NCBI GenBank assembly: GCA_904420065.1
Contig: CAJFTU010000011.1
Location: 1-64,000, forward strand
Reading direction: 5' to 3'
Source: an uncultured Emergencia sp.
Lineage (GTDB): Bacteria; Bacillota; Clostridia; Peptostreptococcales; Anaerovoracaceae
Length of the DNA: 64,000 nucleotides
The notes under the pieces were generated by a model. The model had not been told where the DNA came from, did no database searches, and worked only from the letters and a program-made list of their open reading frames with translations. A program made the translations under genes and the position numbers. Positions 15,823-35,486 of this stretch are shown piece after piece. Each line of letters opens with the position of its first letter. The first letter of the stretch is position 1.

Positions 15823-15849
15823 AACAGGAGATAAATCGTTAATGACTGT

Positions 15850-16010
15850 TTCACGTTCCAATTTACATATTGGCTAAGAGGGAAGCAAGTGTGAGTCTTG
15901 CGCGGTTACCGCCGCTGTAATGGAAGAGCGTCGATCATCAAGTCACTGGAATATCCGGGAAGACGGGGAGACGCATTGACGCCTGAGCCAGAAGACCTGC
16001 GTGAAGCAGC
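15850..16010 (+). promoter_or_regulatory. Cobalamin riboswitch 1
   Basis: The conserved cobalamin-aptamer blocks are present in order: GCTAAGAGGGAAGC, GTGAGTCTTGCGCGG, CCGCCGCTGTAATGG, the TCACTGG box, CCGGGAAGACGG and GCCTGAGCCAGAAGACCTGC. A terminator hairpin follows 53 nt later, so transcriptional control (off with B12) of the downstream repeat protein and ECF transporter is expected. The track's ORF start at 15898 lies inside the aptamer and is an artefact. Confidence 0.95.
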
Positions 16011-16062
16011 AGACAAGCCGACGGTTATCGGCAAGTCTGATATATTTTATGCGGGAATGCGG

Positions 16063-16091
16063 ACTGCAGCTTTTTGGGCTGCAGTTTTTTT
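16063..16091 (+). terminator. Riboswitch 1 expression-platform terminator
   Basis: ACTGCAGC and GCTGCAGT form a perfect 8-bp stem with a 7-nt loop, followed by seven T residues. It lies between the aptamer and the first ORF. Confidence 0.9.
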
Positions 16092-16119
16092 ATGCCAAAA
16101 AAACGAAAAGGATGGTACT

Positions 16120-17160
16120 TTGAAGGAAAAAAGAATAGATAAGGAAACAGAACAATTAAAACAATTTCTGATCTGCCATATGGCGAGAAAGAAGGATAAA
16201 GAATATCAAAAGGAAGATCGAAACTCTGTACTCAGGAAAAATTACAGCCTTACAACAGCGAGAGGACGCCGGGTCTATGAGAGTTTTACCGATGAGGAGC
16301 TTCTGGAATGTCTGCGGACGGCGGCTCGCGAGCTGAATCACGCGCCGGCCCAGAAAGAGATATTCTGGGTCCTTCGAGCATATATCAAACAACGCTTTCA
16401 GCGGTGGCCTTACGCCCTGAAAGCTGCAGGTCTTGCTGCTTCTGCCGGTAAAGGCGGAAAGACGATGGCGCAGATAGAGGCAGAAAACAAACGACTTAAG
16501 GAGCTTCTGGAGAAAGTCAGAGAAAAAGCGATAGAGCTGGGGAAAATACCTCACCCTCAGGATCTTCCTGAGGTGTGCAGCGAAGTCAGAAAATTTTACA
16601 GCGACTGGGGAAATGTCATTGAGGCGGCGAATTTAGATCCAAAATTTCTAAACAGAGAAGCGGTATACAAGATTGATAGTCTTGAGCCGGAATATCGACT
16701 CATGCTGGAGTCGGTGAAAAAACACGCATATCAGTTGGGCAGAACGCCTCTTCACGGCGAAATTGATCCAAAGGTTAAGCAGGCGTTAATCGCCCGGTGC
16801 GGTTCCTGGAGAAACGCACTGTACCAGATCGGGTTGGAACCGGTCATGCGTGTCAGACCGTTTTACGGCTTTTACATCGATCACCGAAAAGAGAACAACC
16901 GAGAAAACCATTCTGACAGTCTGTACAACTGCTTTTACAAGGTTTTGAATTTGACAGAACGAGATAAAAACAATCTGAACGTGATACGAGAGCTTTATGA
17001 GAAGAGCGGATCGATTCCGACCAAAAAAGATGTTCCTGCAGATCTGCGGGCAGAACTACAGGATTCCTGCGGATCGTGGGCTAATGTGCTGTATCAGATC
17101 GGTATAGATCCGAAAGATTATCACAGAGCGCTGAAGGGAGGAAAGCGTAATGGAAAGTAA
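16120..17160 (+). CDS. Homing-endonuclease-associated-repeat-like protein in the B12 ECF operon
   Basis: About 346 residues, starting at TTG 16120 behind an AAGGATGG ribosome site. The longer track ORF begins inside the riboswitch; an ATG at 16180 lacks a ribosome site. The protein has four degenerate repeats (residues about 57-106, 121-174, 191-241, 282-331). Each has a helix, a GxxP turn and a terminal CGSWxNxLYQIGL-like motif, resembling the DNA-binding homing endonuclease associated repeat (HNH_repeat). No HNH, GIY-YIG or LAGLIDADG nuclease core is visible. It overlaps ecfT by 11 bp and is controlled by riboswitch 1. A regulatory DNA-binding role is an inference. Confidence 0.7.
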   Translation: MKEKRIDKETEQLKQFLICHMARKKDKEYQKEDRNSVLRKNYSLTTARGRRVYESFTDEELLECLRTAARELNHAPAQKEIFWVLRAYIKQRFQRWPYALKAAGLAASAGKGGKTMAQIEAENKRLKELLEKVREKAIELGKIPHPQDLPEVCSEVRKFYSDWGNVIEAANLDPKFLNREAVYKIDSLEPEYRLMLESVKKHAYQLGRTPLHGEIDPKVKQALIARCGSWRNALYQIGLEPVMRVRPFYGFYIDHRKENNRENHSDSLYNCFYKVLNLTERDKNNLNVIRELYEKSGSIPTKKDVPADLRAELQDSCGSWANVLYQIGIDPKDYHRALKGGKRNGK

Positions 17161-18058
17161 GTGTATCGGTGAAAACAGCGAGTTCGCTTCTTATCATCCG
17201 CTGGTCAATCTGCTGTATTTCGTCTTTGTCATCGGCATCACTATGTTTTCTCTTTCGCCGTATTTTCTGGCGGTAACGCTGCTCTTTTCCTGGTTGTATT
17301 CTATTCTGCTGAAGGGGAAAAAGGGAATAAAGATGAATTTAGCCATGGGAATTTCCATACTCGTCATTATGACGGTGGTAAACCTGTTCTTCAATAACAA
17401 CGGCGAGACTGTGCTGCTGTACATCAATACCAACAGAATCACGGCCGAATCCATCGGTTACGGCATTGCCGGCGGAATCATGCTGCTGTCTGTCGTCGTA
17501 TGGTTCAGCTGTTTCAATGTGATCATGTCCTCTGACAAGCTGATCTATCTTTTTGGAAAAGCTGCGCCAGTACTCGGTCTTACCCTTTCGATGATTTTTC
17601 GTTTTATACCGCTTCTTCAAAGCCGGTTTGCAGAAATTTCCATCGGACAGAAATGTATGGGGAGAGGTCATGATCAGGGAAGTCTGATTAAGCGGGCCAG
17701 GCAGTTCACGAAGGAAATTTCTATTTTGATCGCATGGTCTCTCGAAGCTTCGATCGAAAGTGCGGATTCCATGGAAGCGAGGGGGTATGGCCTCCGAGGA
17801 AGAACCAGCTTTCATCTGTTTAAATTTACTCGCAGAGACGGGGTTTTGGCGGTCCTGTTCGCAGCGACGGGGATGATCGTGGCGGCTGCTGTGGCAAGCG
17901 GCGCTACGAATATGTATTTTTATCCGAAAATAGTCATACCGCCTATGAATGTACAGACGGCCGGCGCGTTGATCTGTTATTGTATTCTGTCAGCCGCGCC
18001 GATAATCATTGATATAACAGGAGAACTGCGATGGAAACGATCAGACTTGATTATGTAA
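17150..18058 (+). CDS. ECF transporter transmembrane component EcfT (CbiQ-like)
   Basis: Energy-coupling membrane subunit linking the ATPases to the substrate-specific S component. The 302-residue product has about five to six membrane segments and the family's cytoplasmic coupling-helix motif SMEARGYGLRGRT (near residue 205). GGAGG lies just upstream of the ATG, inside the preceding gene. It overlaps ecfA by 28 bp. Being under a B12 riboswitch, it most likely powers cobalamin or precursor uptake. Confidence 0.92.
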   Translation: MESKCIGENSEFASYHPLVNLLYFVFVIGITMFSLSPYFLAVTLLFSWLYSILLKGKKGIKMNLAMGISILVIMTVVNLFFNNNGETVLLYINTNRITAESIGYGIAGGIMLLSVVVWFSCFNVIMSSDKLIYLFGKAAPVLGLTLSMIFRFIPLLQSRFAEISIGQKCMGRGHDQGSLIKRARQFTKEISILIAWSLEASIESADSMEARGYGLRGRTSFHLFKFTRRDGVLAVLFAATGMIVAAAVASGATNMYFYPKIVIPPMNVQTAGALICYCILSAAPIIIDITGELRWKRSDLIM

Positions 18059-19692
18059 ATTTTTCCTATCCGTTGTCGGAGAAACCCGCACTGCGGGATG
18101 TGACTTTTACCATACAACCAAGTCAGTTTATCGTGTTGTGCGGAAAGTCCGGATGTGGAAAGAGCACGCTGTTGAGACAGCTGAAGAAAAATCTGATTCC
18201 CTACGGCCGGCTTGAGGGTCAGGTGCTCTATTGCGGAGAAAGAGTAGATGAGCTGCCTGACAGAAAAAGCGCGGAAGAAATCGGATTTGTACAGCAGAAT
18301 CCGGACAATCAAATTGTGACGGACAAGGTATGGCATGAGCTGGCCTTCGGCTTGGAGAGTCTGGGCCTTTCAAATTCAGCCATAAAGCGGCGTGTCGCGG
18401 AAATGGCCAGCTATTTTGGTATTCAGGGATGGTTTAGGAAGAATGTCAGCGAGCTGTCCGGCGGACAAAAGCAGCTTTTGAACCTGGCTTCAATCATGGC
18501 GATGCAGCCGAAGTTGCTGATTCTCGACGAACCCGCATCACAGCTTGATCCTATCGCAGCTTCTGAATTCCTGCAGACCGTATATAAAATAAATCGTGAC
18601 CTTGGAACAACCGTGCTGATTTCAGAACATCGGCTGGAAGAAGTATTTCCTATGGCCGACAAGGTGATGGTCATGGATGAGGGAAAGCTGATTGCTTTTG
18701 CAGAGCCGGAGCGAATCGGAGAGTTTTTATCCGGAGAAAAAGGAGGCGAACGGCATCCGATGTTTTACGGACTGCCTTCTGTGACGAGAATTTTTTCCGA
18801 GGTCTGTCCGGAAGAGAAAAGTCCGCTGACAATCCGGGAAGGCAGGCTGCGTGTTGCACAGATCCTTGACGGGAAAGAGAAAGGACGGGAACAGAAGACG
18901 GAGCAGGCAGGTAAAAAGAAGCGGGCGGCAGTCCGAAAGGGAGAGAATGCTCTTTCCGTGAAGGATGTCTACTTTCGATACGATAGAGGAAAAGAGCCGG
19001 TACTTCGCGGGCTGTCCTTTTCCGTACGGAAGAATCAGTGGTACTGTTTATTAGGCGGAAACGGTTCCGGAAAGAGCACGACGCTGAAAGTGACGGCGGG
19101 AATACTGAAGCCTCAGAAAGGGGAGGTCAAAAAAGAAGTGGAGAAGCTCTCCATGCTTCCACAGAACCCTCAAGCTCTTTTTACCGAGATTACGGTGGAA
19201 GAAGAGCTTCTTGAAGCCCTTTACTACACCAGTCTTCCTGATCGGGAAAAGATCCTGCAGATAGAGGATATGCTGACGCTGATGGAAATTGAGCATCTGC
19301 GAAAAGCCAATCCTTACGATCTCAGCGGAGGTGAACAACAGAGACTGGCGCTGGGTAAAATTCTTTTGCTGAAGCCGGAGCTGCTCCTGCTCGACGAACC
19401 CACAAAAGGATTGGACCCTTTTTTCAAGAGAACACTGGCTCAGATCCTCAGGAAATTGACAGAGAAGGGAGTGACGATCTTTATGGTTTCTCATGATATT
19501 GAGTTCTGTGCAGAATACGCAGATCGCTGCGCCATGTTCTTTGACGGAGATATCGTTTCAGAAGGCAGGCCGCAGGAGTTCTTTTCCGGGAATAGCTTTT
19601 ATACGACTACGGCTAACCGAATCGTCCGGGAATGGAATCCGAAAGCAATTACCTGCGAGGAGGTAGCGCTTTGGTTAAAAAATACGATATGA
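18031..19692 (+). CDS. ECF transporter ATPase, two ABC domains fused (EcfA-EcfA')
   Basis: 553-residue fusion of two ABC ATPases. Domain 1 (about 5-240) has Walker A GKSGCGKST, signature LSGGQKQLL and Walker B LLILDEPASQLDP. Domain 2 (about 310-540) has GGNGSGKST, LSGGEQQRLALG and LLLLDEPTKGLDP. They are joined by a Lys/Arg/Glu-rich linker. It supplies both ATPase halves of the ECF module. The end overlaps the S-component start region, indicating translational coupling. Confidence 0.94.
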   Translation: METIRLDYVNFSYPLSEKPALRDVTFTIQPSQFIVLCGKSGCGKSTLLRQLKKNLIPYGRLEGQVLYCGERVDELPDRKSAEEIGFVQQNPDNQIVTDKVWHELAFGLESLGLSNSAIKRRVAEMASYFGIQGWFRKNVSELSGGQKQLLNLASIMAMQPKLLILDEPASQLDPIAASEFLQTVYKINRDLGTTVLISEHRLEEVFPMADKVMVMDEGKLIAFAEPERIGEFLSGEKGGERHPMFYGLPSVTRIFSEVCPEEKSPLTIREGRLRVAQILDGKEKGREQKTEQAGKKKRAAVRKGENALSVKDVYFRYDRGKEPVLRGLSFSVRKNQWYCLLGGNGSGKSTTLKVTAGILKPQKGEVKKEVEKLSMLPQNPQALFTEITVEEELLEALYYTSLPDREKILQIEDMLTLMEIEHLRKANPYDLSGGEQQRLALGKILLLKPELLLLDEPTKGLDPFFKRTLAQILRKLTEKGVTIFMVSHDIEFCAEYADRCAMFFDGDIVSEGRPQEFFSGNSFYTTTANRIVREWNPKAITCEEVALWLKNTI

Positions 19693-20606
19693 CTCAATAC
19701 GAAGCTGCGCATAGAAAGAGAACCCGTGTAGCGGCGCTGTTTATCTTTCTGTTCATGCCGATTACCATTTTTCTCGGCGTACGGTTTGCCCAAAGTGAAT
19801 ACATGGTCATCAGCGTTTTGATTCTGTTTTACACGATGGTGCCCTTTTTTATGGTTTTTGAGCGGAGAAAACCCAAGGCCAGGGAAATCGTGCTTATTGC
19901 GGTGATGTCCGCGCTCACTGTCTGCGCGCATATTTTTTTTCATATCACCATCCCCGTCCAAATTGGAACAGCGATGATTATCATTTCCGGAATTTCGCTG
20001 GGGCCGGAGGCGGGATTTCTGATCGGCGCTATTTCACGGTTTGTGTGTAATTTCTACATGGGACAGGGACCGTGGACGCCGTGGCAGATGTTCTGCTGGG
20101 GAATTCTGGGCTTTCTTGCGGGGCTGGCGTTTAACAAGGTGGATCTGGACCAGCTGAAATCCAGAAATTTTAAAGTTGTCATGGGACCGGTTATCTGCAT
20201 TTTGTTCAGTTTTCTTGCCGCTTACGTCTGTTATCAGCTCTGGCCGGGAGACGACGGAACCTTTTTCGGATGGCGTCTCTATATTTTCGGCTTTGCCGGA
20301 CTTGTGGCAGGCGTACTCCTGCAGCGCAAGAGACTGCCTGTGGATGGAATAACCCTGTCCCTGTTTACCTTTTTCGTCACGTTTATCGTCTATGGAGGGG
20401 TGATGAACGTCTGTGCGCTGGTTACTTCCGCGGGAGCTCCGGGGGGAGCGGAGATCAGCTTGAAAGCGCTGAGAGCGCTGTATATCTCCGGCGCGCCTTA
20501 TGATGCGTTTCACGCAGGATCGGCGGCGCTGTGCACGTTTCTGTTTGGAAACAGTGTTATCAGAAAACTGGAGCGAATCAAGATCAAATATGGAATTTAC
20601 AAGTAG
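19671..20606 (+). CDS. ECF transporter S component, probable cobalamin type (CblT-like)
   Basis: Membrane substrate-binding subunit of about 311 residues with some seven hydrophobic segments. The start chosen is TTG 19671 (MVKKYDMTQYEAAHRKRTR), 7 bp after GAGGAGG; the track's 19632 ATG has no ribosome site. Features include REIVLIAVMSALTVCAHIFF and the GPEAGFLIGAISRFVCNFYMGQGPWTPWQM region, typical of larger ECF S components. Riboswitch 1 upstream and the operon suggest cobalamin or a precursor as ligand. Other corrinoids are possible. Confidence 0.82.
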   Translation: MVKKYDMTQYEAAHRKRTRVAALFIFLFMPITIFLGVRFAQSEYMVISVLILFYTMVPFFMVFERRKPKAREIVLIAVMSALTVCAHIFFHITIPVQIGTAMIIISGISLGPEAGFLIGAISRFVCNFYMGQGPWTPWQMFCWGILGFLAGLAFNKVDLDQLKSRNFKVVMGPVICILFSFLAAYVCYQLWPGDDGTFFGWRLYIFGFAGLVAGVLLQRKRLPVDGITLSLFTFFVTFIVYGGVMNVCALVTSAGAPGGAEISLKALRALYISGAPYDAFHAGSAALCTFLFGNSVIRKLERIKIKYGIYK

Positions 20607-20823: not shown

Positions 20824-21000
20824 ATGGCGGATCTCCTCTTGTATTTGGGTTTAGCTGCAGCCGGCTATGTTTTGACGACAAGGCTGCTGAAGAACAGAGA
20901 TCTTACTTTGGCAACCATGCTCCAAGGTTGGTGTATGCTGATTTCGGTGCAGGGATTTTCTGGCAGGACATTTACCCGATTGACAGAAGAAAAGAGTTGA
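20824..21000 (+). CDS. Small membrane protein of 58 residues
   Basis: Missed by the ORF track because of its length. The ATG at 20824 directly follows the upstream TAG. It encodes a hydrophobic N-terminus (LLLYLGLAAAGYVLTTRLL) as one membrane helix, a possible second amphipathic segment, and a charged tail. No family is recognised. Its last codons contain the -35 box of the next riboswitch promoter. Confidence 0.4.
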   Translation: MADLLLYLGLAAAGYVLTTRLLKNRDLTLATMLQGWCMLISVQGFSGRTFTRLTEEKS

Positions 21001-21008
21001 AATATAAT
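20980..21008 (+). promoter_or_regulatory. Promoter P2 of cobalamin riboswitch 2
   Basis: TTGACA (20980-20985), 17 bp, TATAAT (21003-21008): consensus boxes and spacing. The -35 lies inside the 20824-21000 small ORF. Confidence 0.85.
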
Positions 21009-21030
21009 AACTATAACTGAATAGAGTTGT

Positions 21031-21203
21031 TTTATGTTCTTCCTGTTTAGGGAAGCTAAGAGGGAAGCAGGTGAGATACCTGCGCGGTCCCGCCACTGTG
21101 ATTGGAGAGTTCTGTCCACGGTTTAACCAGCCACTGATTGAAGATCGGGAAGGCCGGACGGAGCGATTGATCCATAAGCCAGGAGACCTGCATAGAACTG
21201 TTC
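21031..21203 (+). promoter_or_regulatory. Cobalamin riboswitch 2
   Basis: All aptamer blocks are present: GCTAAGAGGGAAGCAGGTGAGA, TGCGCGGTCCCGCCACTGTGAT, GCCACTG, ATCGGGAAGGCCGG and AAGCCAGGAGACCTGC. A closing stem GTTCT/AGAAC is visible. It controls the surface-protein operon beginning at 21309. Confidence 0.95.
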
Positions 21204-21250
21204 TTTTCCGGCGGTGAACCAGGAAGAAGAATTTTTGTGCCAGTAAATAC

Positions 21251-21281
21251 GGACGGTGAAGACGATCACGGTCCTTTTTTT
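21251..21281 (+). terminator. Riboswitch 2 terminator
   Basis: GGACGGTGA and TCACGGTCC pair with one internal mismatch around AGACGA, followed by seven T residues, 28 bp before the next start codon. Confidence 0.82.
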
Positions 21282-21308
21282 GTGCCGTGAGAACAGGAGG
21301 AAAAGAGA

Positions 21309-22430
21309 ATGAAAGCGAGAAAATTGTGGACAAGAAAAATACTGGCTGTATGGATTGCTCTGTCACTACTTTTTGCCGGAAGCGCAGTCTGGAATCAACA
21401 GAACGCATACGCGGCGGAACAGGATACGATCAGCGTTTATGTAACTCTGAGCGAACGCGGGGAGATCGCCCTCGCAGACGGACAGCCTATGGCTGACGTT
21501 CCCGTCAAGGTGAAAGCCGACAACGGTACGGCTACGGTAGACGACGTCATGGAGGCTTTCCACCAGCTCTATAAACCGGGAGAGTATACCTGTGACCAGT
21601 ATGTTACGCAGCTTTGGGGCATTGAGACCAGCAATACCCTGTTTTTCATCAATGATCTGGCTTTGACCAGCGGTGTACAGTACGAACCGGTAAAGGATGG
21701 GGATCATATTACTGCTTCTGTTAATGCCGACGACAGGTATTACGCAGATTATTACTGCAGCTTTGACCGGAAATCCGTAACAGCTGTCAGTGGAGATACC
21801 GTTACGCTGAAGCTTACTGGATATATGGGGATGTCTGAAGAGAAAACTCCCGTATCGATTGCCAATGCACAAATTGGCGTGATTACGGATCAGGGGTTCC
21901 AGGCTCTGGAGGGGGTCAGGACTGATGAAAATGGAAATTTCACTGTCCGGTTAAGCAAAGAGCAGTATGAGCCCGGTAAAACTTATATACTTTCTGCTAT
22001 AGGAACAGTGAAGACGACAGTTACAGATTGGTCTGCAGAAGGGATGCCATCTGTAGAAGTGGAAGCGCCGCTGATCGCTCCGGCATGTATTCTGAAAATT
22101 GAAAGCGGTATTGTCGCCGGCGTAAAAAATACAAAGATTACATCGGTGAAGGCAAAGGCGTCAAAAGGAAGCGTGCTGATCACCTGGAAAAAATCTGCCG
22201 GTTACAAAGTGGATTGCTTTCAGATCTTCCGGTCGGTAAAGAAGGACAGCGGATACGGAAATAAAGCGTATTTCACCACCAAGCACGGTGGCCTGAACGG
22301 CTGGTATAGAAATACAAAGTCCCTGAAAAAGGGGAATCGTTACTACTATAAGGTACGGGGCGTACGGGTAGTAGACGGAGAAAAGATTTATACAAATTAT
22401 TCCGTCCCGGTCGGCGTCACGGCTAAATAG
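21309..22430 (+). CDS. Secreted protein with degenerate DUF4430-like domain and one C-terminal Fn3-like repeat
   Basis: 373 residues. A signal peptide (residues 1-35, cleavage near AYA-AE) is followed by a region about 38-150 that resembles a diverged DUF4430/transcobalamin beta domain (TVDDVMEAFHQLYK; NTLFFINDLALTSG; VKDGDHITASV). A beta-rich domain about 155-260 follows (carboxypeptidase-regulatory-like TDENGNFTVRL). One Fn3-like repeat (about 270-373) carries the shared GGLNGWYRNTKSLKKG and [10 protein letters not shown] motifs. No LPXTG is present. AGGAGG precedes the ATG. First gene after riboswitch 2, so probably a B12-responsive surface protein; ligand binding is inferred. Confidence 0.78.
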   Translation: MKARKLWTRKILAVWIALSLLFAGSAVWNQQNAYAAEQDTISVYVTLSERGEIALADGQPMADVPVKVKADNGTATVDDVMEAFHQLYKPGEYTCDQYVTQLWGIETSNTLFFINDLALTSGVQYEPVKDGDHITASVNADDRYYADYYCSFDRKSVTAVSGDTVTLKLTGYMGMSEEKTPVSIANAQIGVITDQGFQALEGVRTDENGNFTVRLSKEQYEPGKTYILSAIGTVKTTVTDWSAEGMPSVEVEAPLIAPACILKIESGIVAGVKNTKITSVKAKASKGSVLITWKKSAGYKVDCFQIFRSVKKDSGYGNKAYFTTKHGGLNGWYRNTKSLKKGNRYYYKVRGVRVVDGEKIYTNYSVPVGVTAK

Positions 22431-22452: not shown

Positions 22453-23832
22453 ATGGATAAGGAATTCGAAAAGAAAGTAAAAAGAAAGAGACTGCGTGTT
22501 GCCGCCGTACTTCTGATCGTCATCGCCGCAGCGGTCTATTTACTTTTGGATATGGATGTGGAAAAGGCAGATTATACGGATTCGTTAAATGATGAAATCG
22601 CTTCTGCACGGGAACTGCACGACATACAGAAGGAAAATACGGGGAACGGCAAGGGAAAATACGCCGAGTATACGCTGCTGGCTTTCAAAGGTCAGATAGA
22701 GGAAGCTGAAGCTGTTGCCGGTTCTGAAGAAAGCGAGTACAACGACAAGAAGGAGGCCTATGAGAAGCTGAAGGAGCAGAGCGCAGCGTTCAGAAAAGCG
22801 GAGAACAGCGACGTTATCGAAAAGGCGGATGCAGAAAAACTGGCCGACCAGAAAAAAACAGAAGAATATACCGTTGAGATCAGATCCGGAAAAGATCTCG
22901 TCTACACCATAGACGGTGAAAAAATCTCAAGCCCGAGAGTGATGAATCTGACGGCCAGGGACGAGGAGGGCCCGTATTATGAAAAGATCAGCGGAATTCT
23001 TCAGGAACTCTCCCTGCAGGGGCAGATCATTTCTTTCTATCAGACAGGATCCTTCGGAGCCGAATTGAAGGCAAAAATCCCGTTTTACAGTGAGAAGGAA
23101 ATCGATGCTTATGCGTACAAGGTGGATTTGAAAAACGACAGTCTCAAGTACGTATCAGCAGCAAGGGTTGATACCGAAGAACAGACTGCCGAATTCACAG
23201 TGAAGGAAGGCGGAGATTATGTCATTCTAACTAAGAAGCTGCATCAGGATGGGAAAAAGACGGTAGATATTGAAAAGGCAGAAAAAGAAGCGGCAGAGAC
23301 AGAGGCAGAGTCGTCAGAAAAGAACAGCGGAAGCGGATCTGTTTCAGACAGCAATAATGACGGCGGAGGAAGTAATCAAAACGGCGGCTCATCGCCGGCA
23401 GCGAAGCCGGATTCGGACAATATTACCGTAACAATAGAAATACGGTGCGATACGTTGGCGCAGGACCTCTCCAAACTGGAGGACCCGGCTCTGAAGGCGT
23501 ATGTACCGAGCGACGGTACAATTCTGTCAAGAACCAAGGTGACCGTCAAACCCGGTTCTACCGTCTTCGACGTTTTGAACAAGGTGTGCCGGGACAAGAA
23601 TATTCAGGTGGAGTCATCTTACACGCCGATGTACGGTTCGTACTATGTCGAGGGAATCAATTATCTCTACGAATTCGACGGAGGCAAGCTGAGCGGATGG
23701 ATGTATAAGGTCAACGGATGGTTTCCGAACTACGGATGCTCTTCCTATACGCTGAAGGACGGAGACGAAATCGTCTGGTGCTACACCTGCGACCTGGGCA
23801 AGGATGTAGGCGGCGGCAGCAGCGTATCATAA
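22453..23832 (+). CDS. Membrane-anchored DUF4430 (transcobalamin-like) protein
   Basis: 459 residues. The N-terminal cytoplasmic KKVKRKRLR is followed by one membrane anchor (about 15-34). A charged helical, probably coiled-coil stretch spans about 45-130, a beta-rich middle domain about 135-265, and a Ser/Gly/Asn linker about 290-320. The C-terminal DUF4430 domain (about 325-455) has the hallmark [15 protein letters not shown] and [14 protein letters not shown]. In transcobalamin and intrinsic factor the equivalent domain covers one face of B12. The anchor would hold the domain at the outer membrane face, well placed to pass ligand to the ECF S component (inference). It lies 22 bp after the previous gene. 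Confidence 0.82.
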
Positions 23833-23863: not shown

Positions 23864-25540
23864 ATGAAGATGAAAAAGAAAATCTTGTCACTGCTCATTA
23901 TTTTGTCCCTATTGGTGACATCTGCGACAAGTTTGGCCTACGGCGCAGAGAACCGTTCGGTTTCTTACCGAACCGCCATGGACACGACGGCCGATTATAT
24001 GGTAAATCAGCTGAAGTCTCCGGGTTACGGCGCAGAGTGGATAATCCTGGGTCTGGCAAGAAGCGGAGCCGACGTGCCGGAATCCTACTACGACACCTAT
24101 TACAGGGATGTGGAAAAGACCGTAAAGGACAACAGAGGCGTTCTGGATAACCGTAAATATACCGAATATTCCCGGGTGATCCTCGCCCTTACGGCTATAG
24201 GTAAAGACCCTTCAAACGTAGGAGGTTACAATCTGCTTGAAAAGCTGGCGGATTTTGAAAACGTAATCTGGCAGGGGATAAACGGACCGATTTGGGCGCT
24301 GATTGCTTTGGACAGCGGCGATTACGTCATCCCTCAGGTCAGCGGCGTTGAGACACAGACCAGTCGGGAGCTCCTTATCGACGAGATCCTCTCTCAGGAA
24401 ATTGACGGCGGAGGTTTCTCTCTCGACGGCAACGAACCGGATTGTGATATTACGGCGATGGCTGTGCAGGCGTTGTCCGGCTACATGGATCGAAGTGATG
24501 TCAAAGCAGCAGTTGACAGGGCAGTAGAGGTACTGTCGTACATGCAGAAGGCTGACGGAACCTTTGCCTCCTGGGGGACGAAAAACGCAGAGAGCATCTG
24601 CCAGGTTATCGTTGCGCTGGCCGCGCTGGATATAGATCCGGTAAAAGACGACCGCTTTATTCGGAACGGCAATACGGTTATAGATGCTTTACTGACCTTT
24701 TACGATGAAAACGGCGGTTTCCGGCACGTAAATACCAGCACAGCGGGCTATGAGCCGATCGTCAACGGTATGGCTACGGAACAGAGTTACTACGCGCTGA
24801 CCGCTTACGACAGACTTCTTGCGGGAAAGACGTCTCTCTACGATATGAGCGACGTTGAAAAAGAAGATGACACTACTACGGATCCGCCGTCCCGGGATGA
24901 AGAGGAAGTGATTGAAGCCGTGGAAGAGGCATCTGTTAAGGCATCCACCGTCCTTGGCGACGGTTATATCAAGGTGCAGTGGACGACGAGCGGAAGTCAG
25001 CCGGTAGATGCTTATGAGATCTACCGTTCACTGAAGAAGGACAGCGGCTATGGCAGTGAACCGTACTATACCACAAAACAGGGCGGTTTGAGCGGATGGT
25101 ATAAAAACTCCAAGGGTCTGACCAAAGGAACTCGATACTATTATAAAGTACGAGGGAAGAAAACCATTGACGGAAACATCTGCTATACGAAGTGGTCCAA
25201 TGTGGCGTACCGAACTTACAGCGGAATTGGAGCGGGCGTAAGAAACACGACGATCAAGGCGAGCTCTGTCGCCGGAAAGGGCTATATTAAAATCAGCTGG
25301 AAAAAATCTGCCGGCTATGCCGTGGATAAGTATCAGGTATTTCGGTCGACCAAGAAAAATTCCGGATACGGTACAAAGGCCTATTTTACAACAAAAAACG
25401 GTACGGTTAGCAGCTATAAGAACACTGCGGGATTGAAGAAGGGAACGCGTTATTACTACAAGGTCAGAGGCGTTCGCCAGTTAGACGGAAGCAACGTCTA
25501 TACGCAGTGGTCCAACAAGGCCTATCGTATAGCCAAATAG
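23864..25540 (+). CDS. Secreted alpha/alpha-toroid protein with two C-terminal Fn3-like repeats
   Basis: 558 residues. A signal peptide (about 1-27) precedes an alpha/alpha-toroid region (about 30-325) with terpenoid-cyclase/prenyltransferase-type repeats ([56 protein letters not shown]). The catalytic DxDD motif of squalene cyclases is not seen. This is the fold class of the N-terminal domain of intrinsic factor and transcobalamin. After an acidic linker, two Fn3-like repeats (about 345-450 and 455-558) close the protein. Third gene after riboswitch 2. I infer a partner of the DUF4430 protein in B12 capture. Confidence 0.82.
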
Positions 25541-25959: not shown

Positions 25960-26020
25960 TTATACAGCGAAAGGAGGGATAGAAGACTCAGAAAACGCTT
26001 AAAAATCAATAGTGTGATGA

Positions 26021-26187
26021 CATTTTATGTTCTCCCCTTGCGTAGAGGGAGCTAAGAGGGAAGCAGGTGAGAGTCCTGCACGGTCCCGCCACTGTAATGG
26101 ATGTGTATCTTCCAAATTGCCACTGGATAATGTCCGGGAAGGCGGAAGAAACAAAGGATCCTAAGTCAGGAGACCTGCATAAGATGA
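26021..26187 (+). promoter_or_regulatory. Cobalamin riboswitch 3
   Basis: GCTAAGAGGGAAGCAGGTGAGAG, TGCACGGTCCCGCCACTGTAATGG, GCCACTGG, CCGGGAAGGCGG and AAGTCAGGAGACCTGC are all present. The P1 stem CATTTTATG/CATAAGATG is visible. It controls the 1,900-residue protein. Confidence 0.95.
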
Positions 26188-26246
26188 GGATTTGCGGCGA
26201 GGATACCGAGAAAATCCGGATATAGATACAGATACAGTAAATTCGG

Positions 26247-26275
26247 ACTGTAGGCAGAGTGCCTGCAGTTTTTTT
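26247..26275 (+). terminator. Riboswitch 3 terminator
   Basis: ACTGTAGGC and GCCTGCAGT pair with one mismatch around AGAGT, followed by seven T residues. Confidence 0.88.
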
Positions 26276-26309: not shown

Positions 26310-29300
26310 ATGAAAGAGAGAAAACAGAGTTTGAAAAAGGTTCTTGCGCTGTTTCTCAGTGTCTTGATCGTCTTCAGCATGATGCCGCAGATGGCGTTTG
26401 CCGATACGACAGCAGAGGCAGATTCTGAAAGTACTTGTAAAGTAACCGTAACCTCCCAAGAGGATCAGAAGTTTTTGCACAAACCGCTGATCGATACAGA
26501 GGTGCAGTCGAATCTTGCTGAGGAATATGGATATGCGGATAGTGTTTCCGGCAGCGTCTCAGCTCTGGATGCTCTGGTAGAGGCGCATATTGCCAAGTAT
26601 GGTGCATCTTTTACAAAAGAAAGTGCAGAGAACTATTTGCAGCTTGATGAGCAGGGCAATGTAACTCGGTATTTTGAGACAGAGACCGCCGATAGTGGGG
26701 TTGTGCTGAACGGGCAACTTTTGCAGAGCTCGCTTGGCACTACAGAATTGGAAGCGGGAGACCGACTGGAATTTTTCTGCTATGCGGCGCCTGAAAAACA
26801 GGATATATATATAGGATTTTCAGGTTCGTATCGTACCGGCAGCAGTGTAGATTATCCCTGGACGCCGGTGACCAGTACTAAGAAAGTCGGAGGGAAGGCA
26901 TTTTCCTTATACTGCTACGGTTTTAATGTGGCGCAGTACGGCACTTTAGAAGAATCGGGACGTTTGCTTGGTGCAGAAAGCATGGACGATATGCAAATCG
27001 GCATAGTTGATGTGAATACCGGTGAAGTGACGCCAATTTCAGATGCGGTTACTGGGGGAAGTTATGCAAGCGCAAGTATAACGCTTGAGCAGACATCAGG
27101 AGAGGTTTATTTAACAGCATATAACGAAGCGTTGAATATTATTATGCCGCTGATTAAAGTTGAAATGGTAGCGGACCCTTCGCTGAAAGTGCTGGAGCTC
27201 TATGCAAATCAAAGCGATTATAACGAACGCAAGAATTCACTCACTATAACGCCTACACTACAGGATGGGCTGTATGAGTATTCGGTAGATGTGCTTGATT
27301 ATGTCAAAGCCAACGGCGTATATATTTATTCCAGCTTTTCTGCGGATCCGAAAGCGTCTACCAATGAATATCTTGGAGAGAAATTAACCAAGATGGTCAG
27401 TAACCAATGGGGTGGCTGGAGCGGCGGCAACGTGGCGAAAGCAAATAACGGATACTTCAATGTTTACTATAGCGGCAGCATGGGAAAAGTTGCCGATTAT
27501 AAGATAAAAGCCAACGTTGTTGCAACGCTGAAAGGCCTGGAACTTGAGGGAATCGTAGATAAAGCCTTTGATACAGATGAGAAGTCCTATCACGCTTATC
27601 TTGATTCCAATGCAGTAAAGACTACGATTAAAGCAACCGGCTACAGCACCTCTTATACGATTAAAGCAAACGGAAAGGAAATAACCAACGGAGAGTCTTC
27701 TGAGCTGGAGTTGGACTGCGATAAGAATGGTCGCATGGAGGTAGATATCTCGGTTTCTTCTGAGGAGTGCAAAGAAACAATCTACCATATCCAATTTGAA
27801 AAAGAACCGGCAACAGAAGCGCCGACTGTTTTACAGCAGCCAAAATCCGCAGATTATATTCTTGGAGAGGAAGCGGAGGCATTGACGACGAAAGCCAGTG
27901 CCAGCGGCACGGTTGCGTATCAGTGGTACAAGAACACCACGGAATCGACAGATGGCGCGCAAGCCATAGACGATGCGACGGGAATGTCTTATACGCCGTC
28001 TGTGGAGGAAATCGGAACCACTTATTATTACTGTCAGTTTACGAATAAGAAAACCAACGAAAAAAGAGTATCGAATTTTGCGAAAGTTGTTGTTGATCCG
28101 GATCCGACTCCGCAGGCAATATTGACTCCGGTCGGCAATGAGTTGGATGAGGAGTATGATTATGTCTGGCATACAGGTTTTGTATATAACATCGGCGAAT
28201 CTGCAAGACAAATCTCCGTTGAGGTAACAAATCAGCTGGAGGGTGCGGAGTACAGCTATGAATGGATGCGTGCTACGGCAGTCCCAAATGGTGAAACCGG
28301 AAAAAACGGATCGAACAAATATACAACAAAGACAATAACTCCTTCTACTGCACCGAACGATGCAACGAATACCGGTGTCTTTTGGCGCTGCAAAGTTACC
28401 TGCAAATTTAAAGGAAAGACCTATAGAGCTTATGCAACAACCGGTGAGAAATCCGGGGAAGAAGATGTGACAGGTGTTTATGTGTTTGTAAAGGCAACGG
28501 ATGCTTCTGCGCCCAAAATTTCTAAACAGCCGGTAGGCAAGGAGGATCTGGAAGTCAGTGACAAAGATACATACAGACTTTCTATTACTGCTCAGAAAGA
28601 CGACGGAGGTACGTTAACCTATCAGTGGTATGTGAATACGACGAATAGTAATACGGGCGGTACTCCTATTGACAGTGCGACGACGAATTCTTATTCGGCT
28701 CCGCTGAACGAAATCGGCGAGTTCTATTACTACTGCGTCGTAACGAATACGCTGCAGGGAAAAACAGCCTCGGTAACGTCTGATCCGGCAAAACTTGTGA
28801 TCACAGATCCAAGTGAAATGGCAACAGAGAAACTGAAGGAAGCAGAAATAACAGGCGACGGTACAGAAAACTCACCGTACCAGATTGAGACGGCAGAACA
28901 GCTTGCTGTCGTACAGGAATTGGTTAACGACGGTTATGGATTTGAAGGCCAGTACCTGGCTTTAAAAGCCGATATCACTCTGCCGGCCGACTGGGAACCG
29001 ATGGGTGTAACCAAAAATGGAAAGAACGATATTCAAGGAGGAGCAAATCTCAATCCGTTCAGCGGCAAACTGGATGGTGAAAATCATCAGATTACAGTGC
29101 CGGAGGGCGGACTGCCGCTGCTTGGCTATGTAAAAGAAGCTGAAGTCCGCAATCTGAAAATCTTTGGCGAAGAGATTGACGGCTACGGACTGGTAAATAA
29201 TTTCGAGGGCGTAGGCTTATCCGGCAGTGCAATCGTCATTGACCATGTGACCCTGGTAAAGGGAACAAAGACGAAAAAGGCCGGACTTCTTGGCGCCAAT

Positions 29301-32012
29301 AACACGAATAACCCCTTTGCGGGTTGTTCCGCAGGATTTGTGGCAACCATTACGAATTGCACAATTGAGGAAGGCGTAATCGTCGGATACGATGGAAATG
29401 AATCCAATATCGGCGGATTTGCAGGCAGAATGCAGGGAACCGTTGAGAACTGCGTCAATCATGGAACAGTCAAAGGAAAGAACTATGTCGGCGGTATCGT
29501 CGGATCCAGAGATAACGCCATGGGTGCATGCGTGATAAAGGACTGCACTTTTGACGGCATTGTGACGGCGACAGGCGAACAGGTTGGCGGCATCATCGGC
29601 GGCGCATATGTAAATTCAAGCGCGCCAAATGGTGTAAGAGTGGCAGTCACAGGAAATGAAGCCTCCGGTAGAGTTACCGGAAAGAATTATGTTGGCGGTA
29701 TTATGGGCGCGGACTACTATGTGAATCAGAACTGGGGAAGCGGTTCCTTCAAGCTTAACAAGTTCTCCGGAAAGGTGGAAGCGACAGACGGCGATTATGT
29801 GGGCGGTGTGATCGGTTACCTTGCCAGTCTGAACAAATATGACAATGTTACCGGCAACTATTACGCAAGCGATTGCGGGGCAGAAAAAGGTATCGGGTTT
29901 GTAAAGTATGTGGATACCAGCTGCAAAACTCATGAAACGGAAAGCGGCGCGACTTATGTAGACACTTCTGTGGAGAAACCGGATATTTCGGGATTCACAA
30001 AGGATAATCATAACAGAACAGACGATCCTTTAGGCGCAGATGCGGTTAAATTGACCTATTCGGATGATCAGACGGAACCGATTCTGATCGATCTGGCGAT
30101 TACCGGCAATTATAAAACCGAGTATCTTGTCGGCGACGCATTCTCTTTTGAGGGAATGACTATTACGGCAACGTATCATACAGGAGAGACGAAGACGATT
30201 GACCCGAAACTGGTCAAAGTAGAAAACTTCAACTCGTCGCAGCGAGGATCTCAGGAAGTGACGTTGACCTACGACGGCATAAGCACAGTAATTAACGTAA
30301 CGGTTATGAATCCTGAGGGCGAAGATATTACGGTAAACGTGAGAATTCTCGGAGATACGCTTCACGGAGAATCCGCGCAGAACGTACATACTTTAACAGA
30401 TAACAATCTGCTGGTTTGGATGGAGACGAAGTCTGTTACAGTAAGCAATAACGCCACCGTTTGGGAAGCTTTGCAGAAAGCAATTGAAGGGACGGATATT
30501 TCGATGACGAATCCGACCGGAAACTATATTTCTGCAGTAACCAAGGGCAGCCTTACTCTTGCAGAAATGGCCAACGGCCCGAATTCCGGCTGGATGTATA
30601 CCCTCAATGGAACTCATCCTGAGTATGGAGTGAGTGAGCAGTATTTGAGCAATAACGATTTCATTGTACTTCACTACACCGATGATTACACGAAAGAAGA
30701 AGGTTCCGATAAGTGGGAAGAAGAGGAAATCGTTACGTCCAAAGATGTGGCGGCTTCCGTCAGCGGCAGCGAGGCTTCGGCCAACGTCAGCGCCTCCGAT
30801 ATGGATCAGCTGATTCAGTCCGCAATCGACGGCAATGCTGCCGAAATTACACTGAACGTCACCGGCGCCGGTCAGAGCAGCAAGGTTACGGTGGAAATTC
30901 CGAAAGCGTCTCTGCAGGCCGTCGCCGATAAGACCGACGCTTCCCTGAAGGTGGATACCGCATTGGGTCAGGTGACCTTTGACCGCAGAGCCATGGACGA
31001 AACCGTTAAGGCCGCCTCCGGCAGCACCATCCGCATCGTCCTGGAAAAACGCAGTCTGAGTGCCGAGCAGAAGGAACAGCTGGGCAGCAATGCGGCCATG
31101 ACCGCCGTTTCCCTGTGGTCCGGTCAGCAGGAGATTCGGGATCTGGGCAGCGGGAAGCTGACCGTCGGCCTGCCGGTATCCGGCGAACTGACCGGAAAGC
31201 GCCTTGCCGCAGCAACCGTTGATCCGGAAGGCAAGCTGAGCAAGATCAGCGGCAGAACCGTCACCGTCGGCGGAAAGAATTACTATCAGTTCACCCTGTC
31301 CGCCGGAGGAACCTTCGTCCTTGCGGAAGAAACCCTTCTTGATGCGGCCATCGCCGCCCAGGATGAGGAGAATCCACTGATCGCCGGTGTGGAGAACACC
31401 ACCATCGAGGCCAGCTCCGTACTGGGCGACGGATACGTCAAGGTGAAGTGGACCAAGAGCGCAGGCTACAAGGTAGACGCTTACGAGATCTATCGTTCGA
31501 CGAAGAAGGACAGCGGCTACAGGGACACGCCGTACTTTACGACAAAGCAGGGCGGCCTGAGCGGCTGGTACAAGAACACGAAGGAACTGAAGAAGGGAAC
31601 CCGGTACTACTACAAGGTGAGAGGAAAGCGGGAGATCGACGGAAAGACGTATTACACGCAGTGGTCTAACGCAGCGTATCGAACCTATAAAGCCATCGGA
31701 AAGGGCGTGCGGAACACGAGCGTTAAAGCGTGGTCCACAGCAGGAAAAGGCAATATCCGGGTGAACTGGAAGAAGAGCGCGGGCTATGCCGTAGACTACT
31801 ATCAGGTTTATCGTTCGACAAAGCGGAACAGCGGCTATGGAGAAACGCCGTACTTCACGACGAAGGAAGGCGGCCTGAGCGGCTGGTATAAGAATACGAA
31901 GAACTTGAAGAAGGGAACCCGATACTACTACAAGGTACGGGGCGTGCGGGAGATGGACGGCAAGAAGGTCTATACCCAGTGGTCCAATCTGGCTTACCGC
32001 GTGGCTAAATAG
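26310..32012 (+). CDS. Giant secreted multidomain protein with DUF4430 and Fn3-like repeats, B12-regulated
   Basis: 1,900 residues from ATG 26310 (ribosome site AAGGAAGAG; the track's 26259 start is inside the terminator). Signal peptide about 1-31 (AFA-DT). Then a long unassigned beta-rich region; two Ig-like domains (about 505-590 and 733-830, each with YQWY); GLUG-type repeats (about 990-1190, GGIVGS/GGIIGG/GGIMGA); a bacterial Ig group-3-like domain (about 1260-1335); a DUF4430 domain (about 1339-1465, [16 protein letters not shown]); a low-complexity/beta linker; and two near-identical Fn3-like repeats (about 1691-1900). No LPXTG or S-layer domain is present. Probable surface adhesin or ligand-capture protein. 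Base composition shifts to GC-rich after about 30,740. Confidence 0.85.
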
Positions 32013-33237: not shown

Positions 33238-33266
33238 TAAAATACAGAAGACAGGTTGAATATTCT

Positions 33267-33433
33267 GCTCTGTGTTCTCCTGAACAGATAATCTGTCAGG
33301 AGCTGAGAGGGAAGCAGGTGAGAGTCCTGCGCGGTCCCGCCACTGTAATGGAGGAGTGCTGTCGAAAATGCCACTGTAGATCGGGAAGGCAGACGAGTGC
33401 GTTGATCCCTGAGCCAGGAGACCTGCACAGAAG
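33267..33433 (+). promoter_or_regulatory. Cobalamin riboswitch 4
   Basis: GCTGAGAGGGAAGCAGGTGAGAG, TGCGCGGTCCCGCCACTGTAATGG, GCCACTG, ATCGGGAAGGCAGACG and GAGCCAGGAGACCTGC are present, with a P1 stem CTGTG/CACAG. Located in the 546-bp gap 33169-33714. Confidence 0.95.
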
Positions 33434-33488
33434 CGTCCTTGGCGGCGGAGTACCGCAGAGAGGAAAGAGAGATATACAGTAGAATACG

Positions 33489-33517: not shown

Positions 33518-33714
33518 CTGGTATAGAGATTTTGAAGCAAAGTGCGGCCTGCGGGCAGCCGACTGTTCGCAGACGCAGGTAAAACGTTCTCTTCTTTGTC
33601 TGAATGGTATTGCTTTCCGATTCTGCGGCGTCTGCTTTCCCAAAAAGGTATACACCGCTGAGCTCCGTCAGATGAAGCGGCCTGGGCAAAAATTGTCAGA
33701 GAGGAGAATTGGAT

Positions 33715-34299
33715 ATGAATTTAAACTGGTTTAAAGATCCGGAGCACGTGGTATATGCCGATGTTGAAGAGTTTATTGAAAACTTTGCGAAGGAGACAGG
33801 GATCGATGATCTTCGGGAAAAGATAGAGGCATTTGATGCCCATCCGACGAAAGAGGGTTTGACGTTAAAGGGGAAGAAGAGAACCACGATCAGGTTGTTT
33901 ATTCCAGATCTGGTATTCGATGAGCATATTGAAATGGGAGAAAATATCTGGATTTATATGGGGGAAAGTTATGAATGCTATTGTCTGTACGGTCTCGGGG
34001 ACAAGAATTTCTGCGAAGATGCTAAAGAGTATAAGTTCTTCCGCCACAGAGACTGCGAATACTTCCCTTGCCATCATACGGAGGAAGAAGATAACTTTAA
34101 CTGTCTGTTCTGTTACTGCCCACTCTATGCCATGGGAAGAGAGTGTGGAGGGAATTTCTTCTATCTGGATAATGGCGTAAAGGACTGCAGCGGCTGCGCG
34201 GTACCCCATAAGCGATCCAATTACGATTACATGATGCGAAAGCTAACTGAATTTCATCGGATTCTTCGCGAAAATGACGACAAAAAAACAGAAAGTTGA
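33715..34299 (+). CDS. Cysteine-rich small-domain protein, probable metal binder, B12-regulated
   Basis: 194 residues from ATG 33715 (AGAGGAG 8 bp upstream; the track uses a TTG two codons earlier). The N-terminal half is unassigned. The C-terminal half (about 100-170) has closely spaced Cys/His: CEYFPCHH, CLFCYCPLY, the ECGGNFFY segment and KDCSGCAVPHKRSNYDYM. This pattern fits the cysteine-rich small domain (PF04071 as I recall), which I believe is linked to cobalamin/cobinamide genes in other genomes. Riboswitch 4 upstream supports a corrinoid or cobalt role. The precise function is unknown. Confidence 0.75.
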   Translation: MNLNWFKDPEHVVYADVEEFIENFAKETGIDDLREKIEAFDAHPTKEGLTLKGKKRTTIRLFIPDLVFDEHIEMGENIWIYMGESYECYCLYGLGDKNFCEDAKEYKFFRHRDCEYFPCHHTEEEDNFNCLFCYCPLYAMGRECGGNFFYLDNGVKDCSGCAVPHKRSNYDYMMRKLTEFHRILRENDDKKTES

Positions 34300-34341: not shown

Positions 34342-34359
34342 AAAAATGTAGTTAAATAC

Positions 34360-34530
34360 AATTTTATGTTCCTCTGTTCGGGTATTCCGGAAGAGGCTAA
34401 GAGGGAAACAGGTTAGATTCCTGTGCGGTCCCGCCACTGTAATGGAGGAGTTCCGCCGTATACGCCACTGGCTTTTGCTGGGAAGGCAGACGGAGCGTCG
34501 ATTCCTGAGCCAGGAGACCTGCATAAAATT
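34360..34530 (+). promoter_or_regulatory. Cobalamin riboswitch 5
   Basis: GCTAAGAGGGAAACAGGTTAGA, TGTGCGGTCCCGCCACTGTAATGG, GCCACTGG, GCTGGGAAGGCAGACGG and GAGCCAGGAGACCTGC are present. The closing stem AATTTTATG/CATAAAATT is perfect. Part of the 416-bp gap 34300-34715. Confidence 0.95.
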
Positions 34531-34582
34531 TTTTCTGATCCGGCGGTGAACCGGGCTCAGAAAGTACAAGAACAGCAAATAC

Positions 34583-34715: not shown

Positions 34716-35486
34716 ATGAGAGAACGACTCTATATTGCCACCTATGCAGAGAACGCGGAAGAAGTGATCCGGCAAAACGGGTTGAACGTTGAGCTGGACG
34801 ATCTGTGTTATTCGGCCAGCCTGGATAGGGAGAACGAAGAAGATACGCTGAAGAGGATGAAGGCGGAAATTACCGAAACAGAAGCCGAACGTGCCATCGT
34901 TCACGGGCCCTTTACGGAGATTATTCCGGCTTCCATTGATCATCGGGCGGTAGAACTGGGAATGGAGAGACTGAACGAAGCTTTTCGCCTTGCGGAGCGG
35001 GCAGGGGTGAAGCGAATGGTCGTCCACTCCGGTTACGTACCTTTGCTGTATTTTCGTCAGTGGCATATAGAAAAGTCCTGCGCCTTCTGGAGAGCCTTTA
35101 TGGAGGACAAGCCGAAAGACTTTCACATCTACATAGAAAATGTCTTTGAGGATGAACCGGCGGTGATGCGGGAACTGGTGGAATCCATCGATGATCCGCG
35201 CGTGAAGCTGTGCCTGGATGTGGGCCACGCCAGCGCGGCTGCGGGCCCGGACTGCGATATTTTCCACTGGATCGAGGTTTTGGCGCCATATATCGGTCAC
35301 TTTCATCTTCACAACAACGATGGGAAAGAGGATCTCCACGCGCCTCTTTCCGAAGGGGTTTTGGATATGCAACAGATCTTGCGCTGTATTGAAGAGCGCT
35401 GCGCGGAAGATGTGACACTGACCATAGAAAGCCGAACCTGCCAATCCGGCGTCGATTGGCTGAAAGAGAAGGGCTTTCTGCGGTGA
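34716..35486 (+). CDS. Sugar phosphate isomerase/epimerase-like TIM-barrel protein
   Basis: 256-residue protein of the xylose-isomerase-like/AP-endonuclease-2 superfamily. Metal-site landmarks are visible: HSGYVP, IYIENVFEDEP (Glu), LCLDVGHA (Asp, His), HFHLHNNDG (His) and TIESR (Glu). ACAGGAGAGG precedes the ATG. The gene follows riboswitch 5 but two terminators intervene, so transcription is either tightly B12-controlled or driven by an unseen promoter. The substrate is unknown; a link to corrinoid remodelling is speculative. Confidence 0.78.
   Translation: MRERLYIATYAENAEEVIRQNGLNVELDDLCYSASLDRENEEDTLKRMKAEITETEAERAIVHGPFTEIIPASIDHRAVELGMERLNEAFRLAERAGVKRMVVHSGYVPLLYFRQWHIEKSCAFWRAFMEDKPKDFHIYIENVFEDEPAVMRELVESIDDPRVKLCLDVGHASAAAGPDCDIFHWIEVLAPYIGHFHLHNNDGKEDLHAPLSEGVLDMQQILRCIEERCAEDVTLTIESRTCQSGVDWLKEKGFLR

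Follow-up and report, generated by a model that had tools for sequence, protein, structure and literature searches.

We propose that the gene at 23864..25540 (+ strand, 558 aa) of the 64,000-nucleotide stretch of DNA analysed here, referred to below as the window, encodes the alpha module of a transcobalamin/intrinsic factor-like corrinoid-capture system in which the alpha and beta modules are carried by separate exported polypeptides, and that this module binds its ligand and is not catalytic. We place the probability of this reading at roughly 0.78. An earlier note on this DNA, which gave the same coordinates, had suggested a binding role and a parallel with intrinsic factor. Our analyses support both, with most of the support coming from outside 23864 itself, namely from the neighbouring DUF4430 gene, from the model of a naturally fused relative and from the linkage to cobalamin riboswitches and a CbrT-like importer.

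The gene is the third of an operon (21309, 22453 and 23864, with intergenic gaps of 22 and 31 bp) that is headed by a cobalamin riboswitch (21017..21209, +; Rfam RF00174, 123.7 bits, E 1.4e-30). The riboswitch is preceded by a promoter-like site, TTGACA-17 nt-TATAAT (20980..21008, +), which matches the consensus at 12 of 12 positions, and is followed by a terminator hairpin with a T run (21251..21281, +, from a fold of 21240-21300) that forms its expression platform; comparable hairpins also lie behind the other four cobalamin riboswitches of the window. The B12 regulation claimed in the earlier note thus holds at the level of the operon, with no riboswitch immediately before 23864. The first gene (21309..22430, +) encodes a predicted exported protein with one fn3-like repeat and a weak DUF4430-like stretch that scores 17 bits, below the cut-off. 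The second gene (22453..23832, +) encodes a protein predicted to be membrane-anchored and extracellular, with a transcobalamin-type beta (SLBB/DUF4430) domain at 23554-23787 (75 bits, E 5e-21), so that a toroid and a transcobalamin-type SLBB domain are found in one operon, in genes only 31 bp apart. The DUF4430 family is also matched by human transcobalamin (25.0 bits against a cut-off of 23.8), for which we used a sequence identical to PDB 7qbf_A over 409 residues, and the assignment of the transcobalamin beta-domain to this family has been reported before (PMC4350170). A fourth DUF4430 domain of the genome lies outside the cluster, in a 160-residue open frame (G000 C46:120852-121073).

Upstream of the toroid operon, a second cobalamin riboswitch (15836..16018, +; 114.1 bits) heads a transporter operon that comprises a CbiQ-like EcfT transmembrane component (17150..18058, +; PF02361), a fused double ECF ATPase, EcfA-A' (18031..19692, +), and an ECF S-component resembling CbrT, the cobalamin type (19632..20606, +). 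Homologs of EcfT stand beside toroids at 30 of 40 loci and homologs of the ATPase at 33 of 40. The sole strong match of the S-component family among solved structures is ECF-CbrT (profile A6 against 6FNP, E 1.1e-20), which imports both cobalamin and cobinamide (PMC5997447), and by this likeness we infer cobalamin as the substrate. Directly behind riboswitch 15836, and before EcfT, lies an ORF (16033-17160; listed from 15898) whose product contains the homing-endonuclease-associated HNH_repeat four times and has no evident role in B12 uptake; an ORF resembling it, likewise behind a cobalamin riboswitch, occurs at another locus (L047 3580-4017).

Five of the seven cobalamin riboswitches of the genome fall inside the window, and the remaining two head an operon for corrin biosynthesis and the genes of an ECF-type importer of cobalt. 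Downstream of the toroid, the riboswitch at 26010..26196 (+; 124.2 bits; terminator 26245-26271) precedes a giant exported protein of about 1900 residues (26310..32012, +) that contains DUF4430, Big_3 and two fn3-like repeats, and whose own promoter, cobalamin riboswitch and terminator are arranged as they are before the toroid operon. A fourth riboswitch (34350..34540, +; 114.0 bits) precedes a TIM-barrel protein (34716..35486, +; PF01261, 6e-24) that is weakly CbiR-like (42 bits to NF041277, whose cut-off is 105). CbiR is a cobamide-remodelling enzyme (PMC7733943), and a gene of this kind would fit the import of foreign cobamides. Two relatives from the same family also have homologs of 34716 in the vicinity of toroids (L054:14173-14976 and L056:4568-5449), that of L054 again directly behind a cobalamin riboswitch. 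The remaining riboswitch (33255-33444) controls a Cys-rich zf-like protein (33709-34299; PF04071).

The protein encoded by 23864 begins with a predicted signal peptide (an N-terminal hydrophobic segment of the kind found in 39 of 41 toroid proteins, this one included), in agreement with the export proposed in the earlier note. Its toroid domain resembles the cyclases and prenyltransferases as that note had described, with sub-threshold matches to SQHop_cyclase_C (1.5e-5) and Prenyltrans (7e-4) and an AlphaFold2 model of residues 28-333 (23945..24862, +) that shows paired helices at a pLDDT of 95.7 and a pTM of 0.93. One alternative to weigh is therefore a toroid that works outside the cell as a class II terpene cyclase, or that derives recently from such an enzyme and still uses a prenyl substrate. 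By sequence profile the toroid is closest to squalene-hopene cyclase (E 2.8e-20), nearer than to transcobalamin, and it shares with squalene-hopene cyclase and drimenyl diphosphate synthase both the alpha/alpha fold and, around the motif, the residues DxD and TA. Where cyclases have DxDD, however, 23864 has D193-C-D195-I-T-A-M (24440..24460, +; domain positions 166-172 in the alignment with relatives), and DxDD is absent from all 51 aligned toroid relatives. Most of them have D-x-D-[I/L/M/V]-T-[A/G]-M; over all 51, the first Asp is conserved in 86% and the second in 98% (50/51), and the residue after the second Asp is I, M, V or L in 47 of 51. Two of the three DxDD acids are thus kept, including the cyclase general-acid position (D195), and the third is lost. 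QW repeats (Q....[FW]W) are not found in the toroid domain; the dipeptide QW occurs in the protein only at 372 and 548, both outside the toroid. The alignment of the 51 relatives contains no conserved Cys column and one partly conserved His (73%), which leaves the toroid with neither the Asp-Cys-His zinc site of prenyltransferases nor the thioester of TED domains and bears out the earlier note's statement that neither DxDD nor a prenyltransferase zinc motif is present. Together with predicted secretion and with partners unlike those of the cyclases, namely DUF4430, B12 riboswitches and a CbrT-like transporter, the loss of the third acid and of the QW motifs makes a cyclase very improbable in our view.

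The structural comparison that the earlier note had proposed, with intrinsic factor, transcobalamin and squalene cyclases, gives a divided answer for the toroid alone. In Foldseek searches, catalytic enzymes, the drimenyl diphosphate synthases, do have the lowest E-values (4e-5), but their TMq does not exceed 0.57, whereas transcobalamin reaches 0.59-0.61 (E 6e-5) and intrinsic factor 0.60 (1e-3), and the third active-site acid of the enzymes is missing. On structure, then, the toroid by itself could go either way, with a tie between transcobalamin and the drimenyl-diphosphate synthases, and it is the DUF4430 partner and the fused relatives that settle the likeness to B12 carriers. In several relatives the toroid and DUF4430 are fused in the animal order, the alpha/alpha toroid followed by the beta-domain in a single chain (among them L044, L045, L046, L059 and L060), whereas they are split in the window. 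In three of these (L044:8707-10338, L045:7657-9267 and L046:6984-8657) a hydrophobic, probably membrane-spanning stretch lies between the two domains. We modelled a natural toroid-DUF4430 fusion, L072 (pLDDT 90.5). Its top 15 PDB matches are exclusively transcobalamin, haptocorrin and intrinsic factor (E 2e-12 to 2e-9). The isolated transcobalamin beta-domain comes next (2e-5), and not until 6e-4 does a cyclase or prenyltransferase appear. The beta-domain of L072 superimposes on human TC-beta with a TMt of 0.83 and an rmsd of 2.0. The packing of the two domains in this apo model is unlike that of holo-transcobalamin (rmsd ~18 A over both domains), as may be expected of a ligand-free model. A viral structure library gave no match below 0.001.

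At the level of sequence, the kinship with transcobalamin is much fainter. Profiles of the toroid or of DUF4430 did not reach transcobalamin among solved structures (for the toroid, none at E<1), and the kinship consequently rests on fold and Pfam. Aligned against a three-species transcobalamin set, the profiles give E 0.009 for the toroid and 0.001 for the beta-domain. One local alignment pairs D195 with Asp176 of human transcobalamin; since another run used a different register, we draw no conclusion at the level of residues. The Pfam family of the animal toroid, PF01122, is not matched above its curated cut-off by 23864 or elsewhere in its genome, and is weakly matched by 2 of the 51 relatives.

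Behind the toroid, 23864 carries two fn3-like repeats (aa 353-451 and 458-556; 24920..25531, +), common to 21309, 26310 and the toroid protein of a same-genus relative (L052); our guess is that they anchor these proteins on the cell surface. Such repeats, the giant neighbours with Ig-like domains and weak TED_complement matches in 13 of the 51 relatives could be taken to indicate that the toroid is a structural or adhesion module of the surface, as in cell-wall proteins of the TED or fn3 type, with B12 control being incidental. Against this, the missing conserved Cys leaves no thioester, small toroid proteins devoid of the repeats exist beside DUF4430 and ECF genes, and the association with a CbrT-like S-component extends over many genera. 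We therefore give this explanation hardly any weight.

That association was quantified in 291 genomes of the class, representing 180 genera, in which the toroid is present in 85 genomes and 64 genera. DUF4430 occurs in 82 of these 85 genomes and in 51 of the 206 others, and a CbrT-like S-component in 78/85 and 27/206, respectively, although the Fisher tests applied to these counts ignore shared ancestry. Among 41 loci studied in detail, comprising that of the window and 40 selected by hand for their diversity and the length of their contigs, in some cases with prior knowledge of a nearby riboswitch, 37 have DUF4430 either as a fusion with the toroid or within 500 bp of it, 30 have a same-strand cobalamin riboswitch upstream, 31 have EcfT and EcfAA', and 30 have the S-component. 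In an unselected set, at least 41 of 80 genomes have a riboswitch within 15 kb upstream of the toroid.

The host, an anaerobic bacterium, itself carries, on contig C9 (L082), a riboswitch-led cobalamin biosynthesis operon with cbiD, cbiL, cbiF, cbiG, cbiH, cbiJ, cobA/hemD, hemL, cobB/cbiA and a cobD-like gene, and elsewhere in the same genome (L083, G000 C31) a riboswitch-led cbiM-cbiQ-cbiO cobalt importer. Judged by its gene content, it is predicted to be a B12 producer that also has a capture system, and its need for scavenging is, given this operon, not obvious. We considered auxotrophy as the general driver and rejected it. Of the 85 toroid genomes 18 have cbiD, as against 56 of the 206 others, which is no significant difference, and as most genomes of both groups (67/85 and 150/206) lack it, the toroid shows no tie to auxotrophy in the 291-genome sample. 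The biosynthesis operon also bears on the identity of the ligand, as a host with its own corrin-ring pathway could be limited by a precursor. The ligand might then be cobinamide, a lower-ligand base, alpha-ribazole or another tetrapyrrole in place of an intact cobamide, with B12 control reflecting the need of the pathway. Cobinamide is taken by ECF-CbrT (PMC5997447) and also by transcobalamin (PMC5599065), and ligands vary across the SLBB superfamily (PMC1796856). We nevertheless consider such a ligand unlikely, given that whole cobalamin is what the nearest relatives of known structure bind, for the two domains and the S-component alike; the CbiR-like gene of the cluster is a further, weak hint at imported complete cobamides.

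Taken as a corrinoid-capture system, the genes of the window suggest the following sequence of events. Low intracellular adenosylcobalamin would permit read-through of the operon, as the riboswitch, promoter and terminator imply, and the products of 23864 (the toroid) and 22453 (the DUF4430/SLBB protein) would reach the outside of the cell by their predicted N-terminal signal or anchor. There the two polypeptides would sandwich one corrinoid, as their folds and animal relatives suggest. The ECF transporter of the upstream genes, made up of EcfT, EcfAA' and the CbrT-like S-component, would then receive and import it, perhaps for remodelling by the CbiR-like enzyme, a step that is speculative. 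A split binder is physically plausible in view of the human protein, in which TC-alpha and TC-beta, expressed apart, assemble only upon addition of cobalamin (PMC5599065). The window may encode a naturally split intrinsic factor whose alpha and beta parts join only around a corrinoid and pass it to an ECF-CbrT-like importer, with a corrin-making host recapturing or remodelling cobamides; this fuller picture is tentative, and we rate its chances as slightly short of even.

The family to which these proteins belong is not new. Bacterial toroid-SLBB B12 scavengers, together with the parallel to intrinsic factor, were predicted from sequence by Burroughs, Balaji, Iyer and Aravind in 2007 (PMC1796856), and the novelty of our findings is accordingly modest. 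Like that clade, the system described here is exported, combines a toroid with a transcobalamin-type beta-grasp domain and has CbiQ/CbiO-like transporter genes in the toroid neighbourhood; both also have a second SLBB protein encoded in conserved operons and a proposed role in B12 scavenging. It differs in that toroid and SLBB are separate genes in an operon headed by a cobalamin riboswitch, and in that the hosts considered in 2007 usually lack key B12 biosynthesis enzymes (PMC1796856), whereas the present host carries a biosynthesis operon. What is new here is the split form, the quantified linkage to riboswitch and transporter, and the occurrence of such a system in a host equipped with an operon for cobalamin biosynthesis. 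In the open-licence literature that we searched, no experimental study of the bacterial toroid-DUF4430 family came up, an absence that is itself weak evidence. With the animal carriers transcobalamin, intrinsic factor and haptocorrin (PF01122 and PF14478) the system shares the alpha/alpha toroid fold and the DUF4430 beta-domain, and the fused relatives of the window proteins resemble these carriers further in joining both domains, identically ordered, in a single chain. In contrast to these carriers, the window protein does not match PF01122, shows marginal sequence similarity, has no conserved toroid cysteines, is divided between two polypeptides and is a predicted binder. The S-component resembles that of ECF-CbrT (PDB 6FNP, PMC5997447) by sequence profile, but its gene has toroid and SLBB genes as neighbours, and it comes with an EcfT and fused ATPases of its own. 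A functional parallel is offered by the surface-exposed B12-binding lipoproteins of gut Bacteroides, which also capture B12 at the cell surface to feed an importer; these belong to a Gram-negative outer-membrane system and are likened to the window by function alone (PMC6143338).

Finally, if our reading is correct, intrinsic factor-like capture proteins would be widespread in this bacterial class, given a toroid in 64 of the 180 genera sampled, with a bearing on the competition for B12 among anaerobes and between them and their hosts. Moreover, it has been proposed that animals acquired their B12 carriers from Gram-positive bacteria (PMC1796856), and this origin would become directly testable on bacterial proteins.
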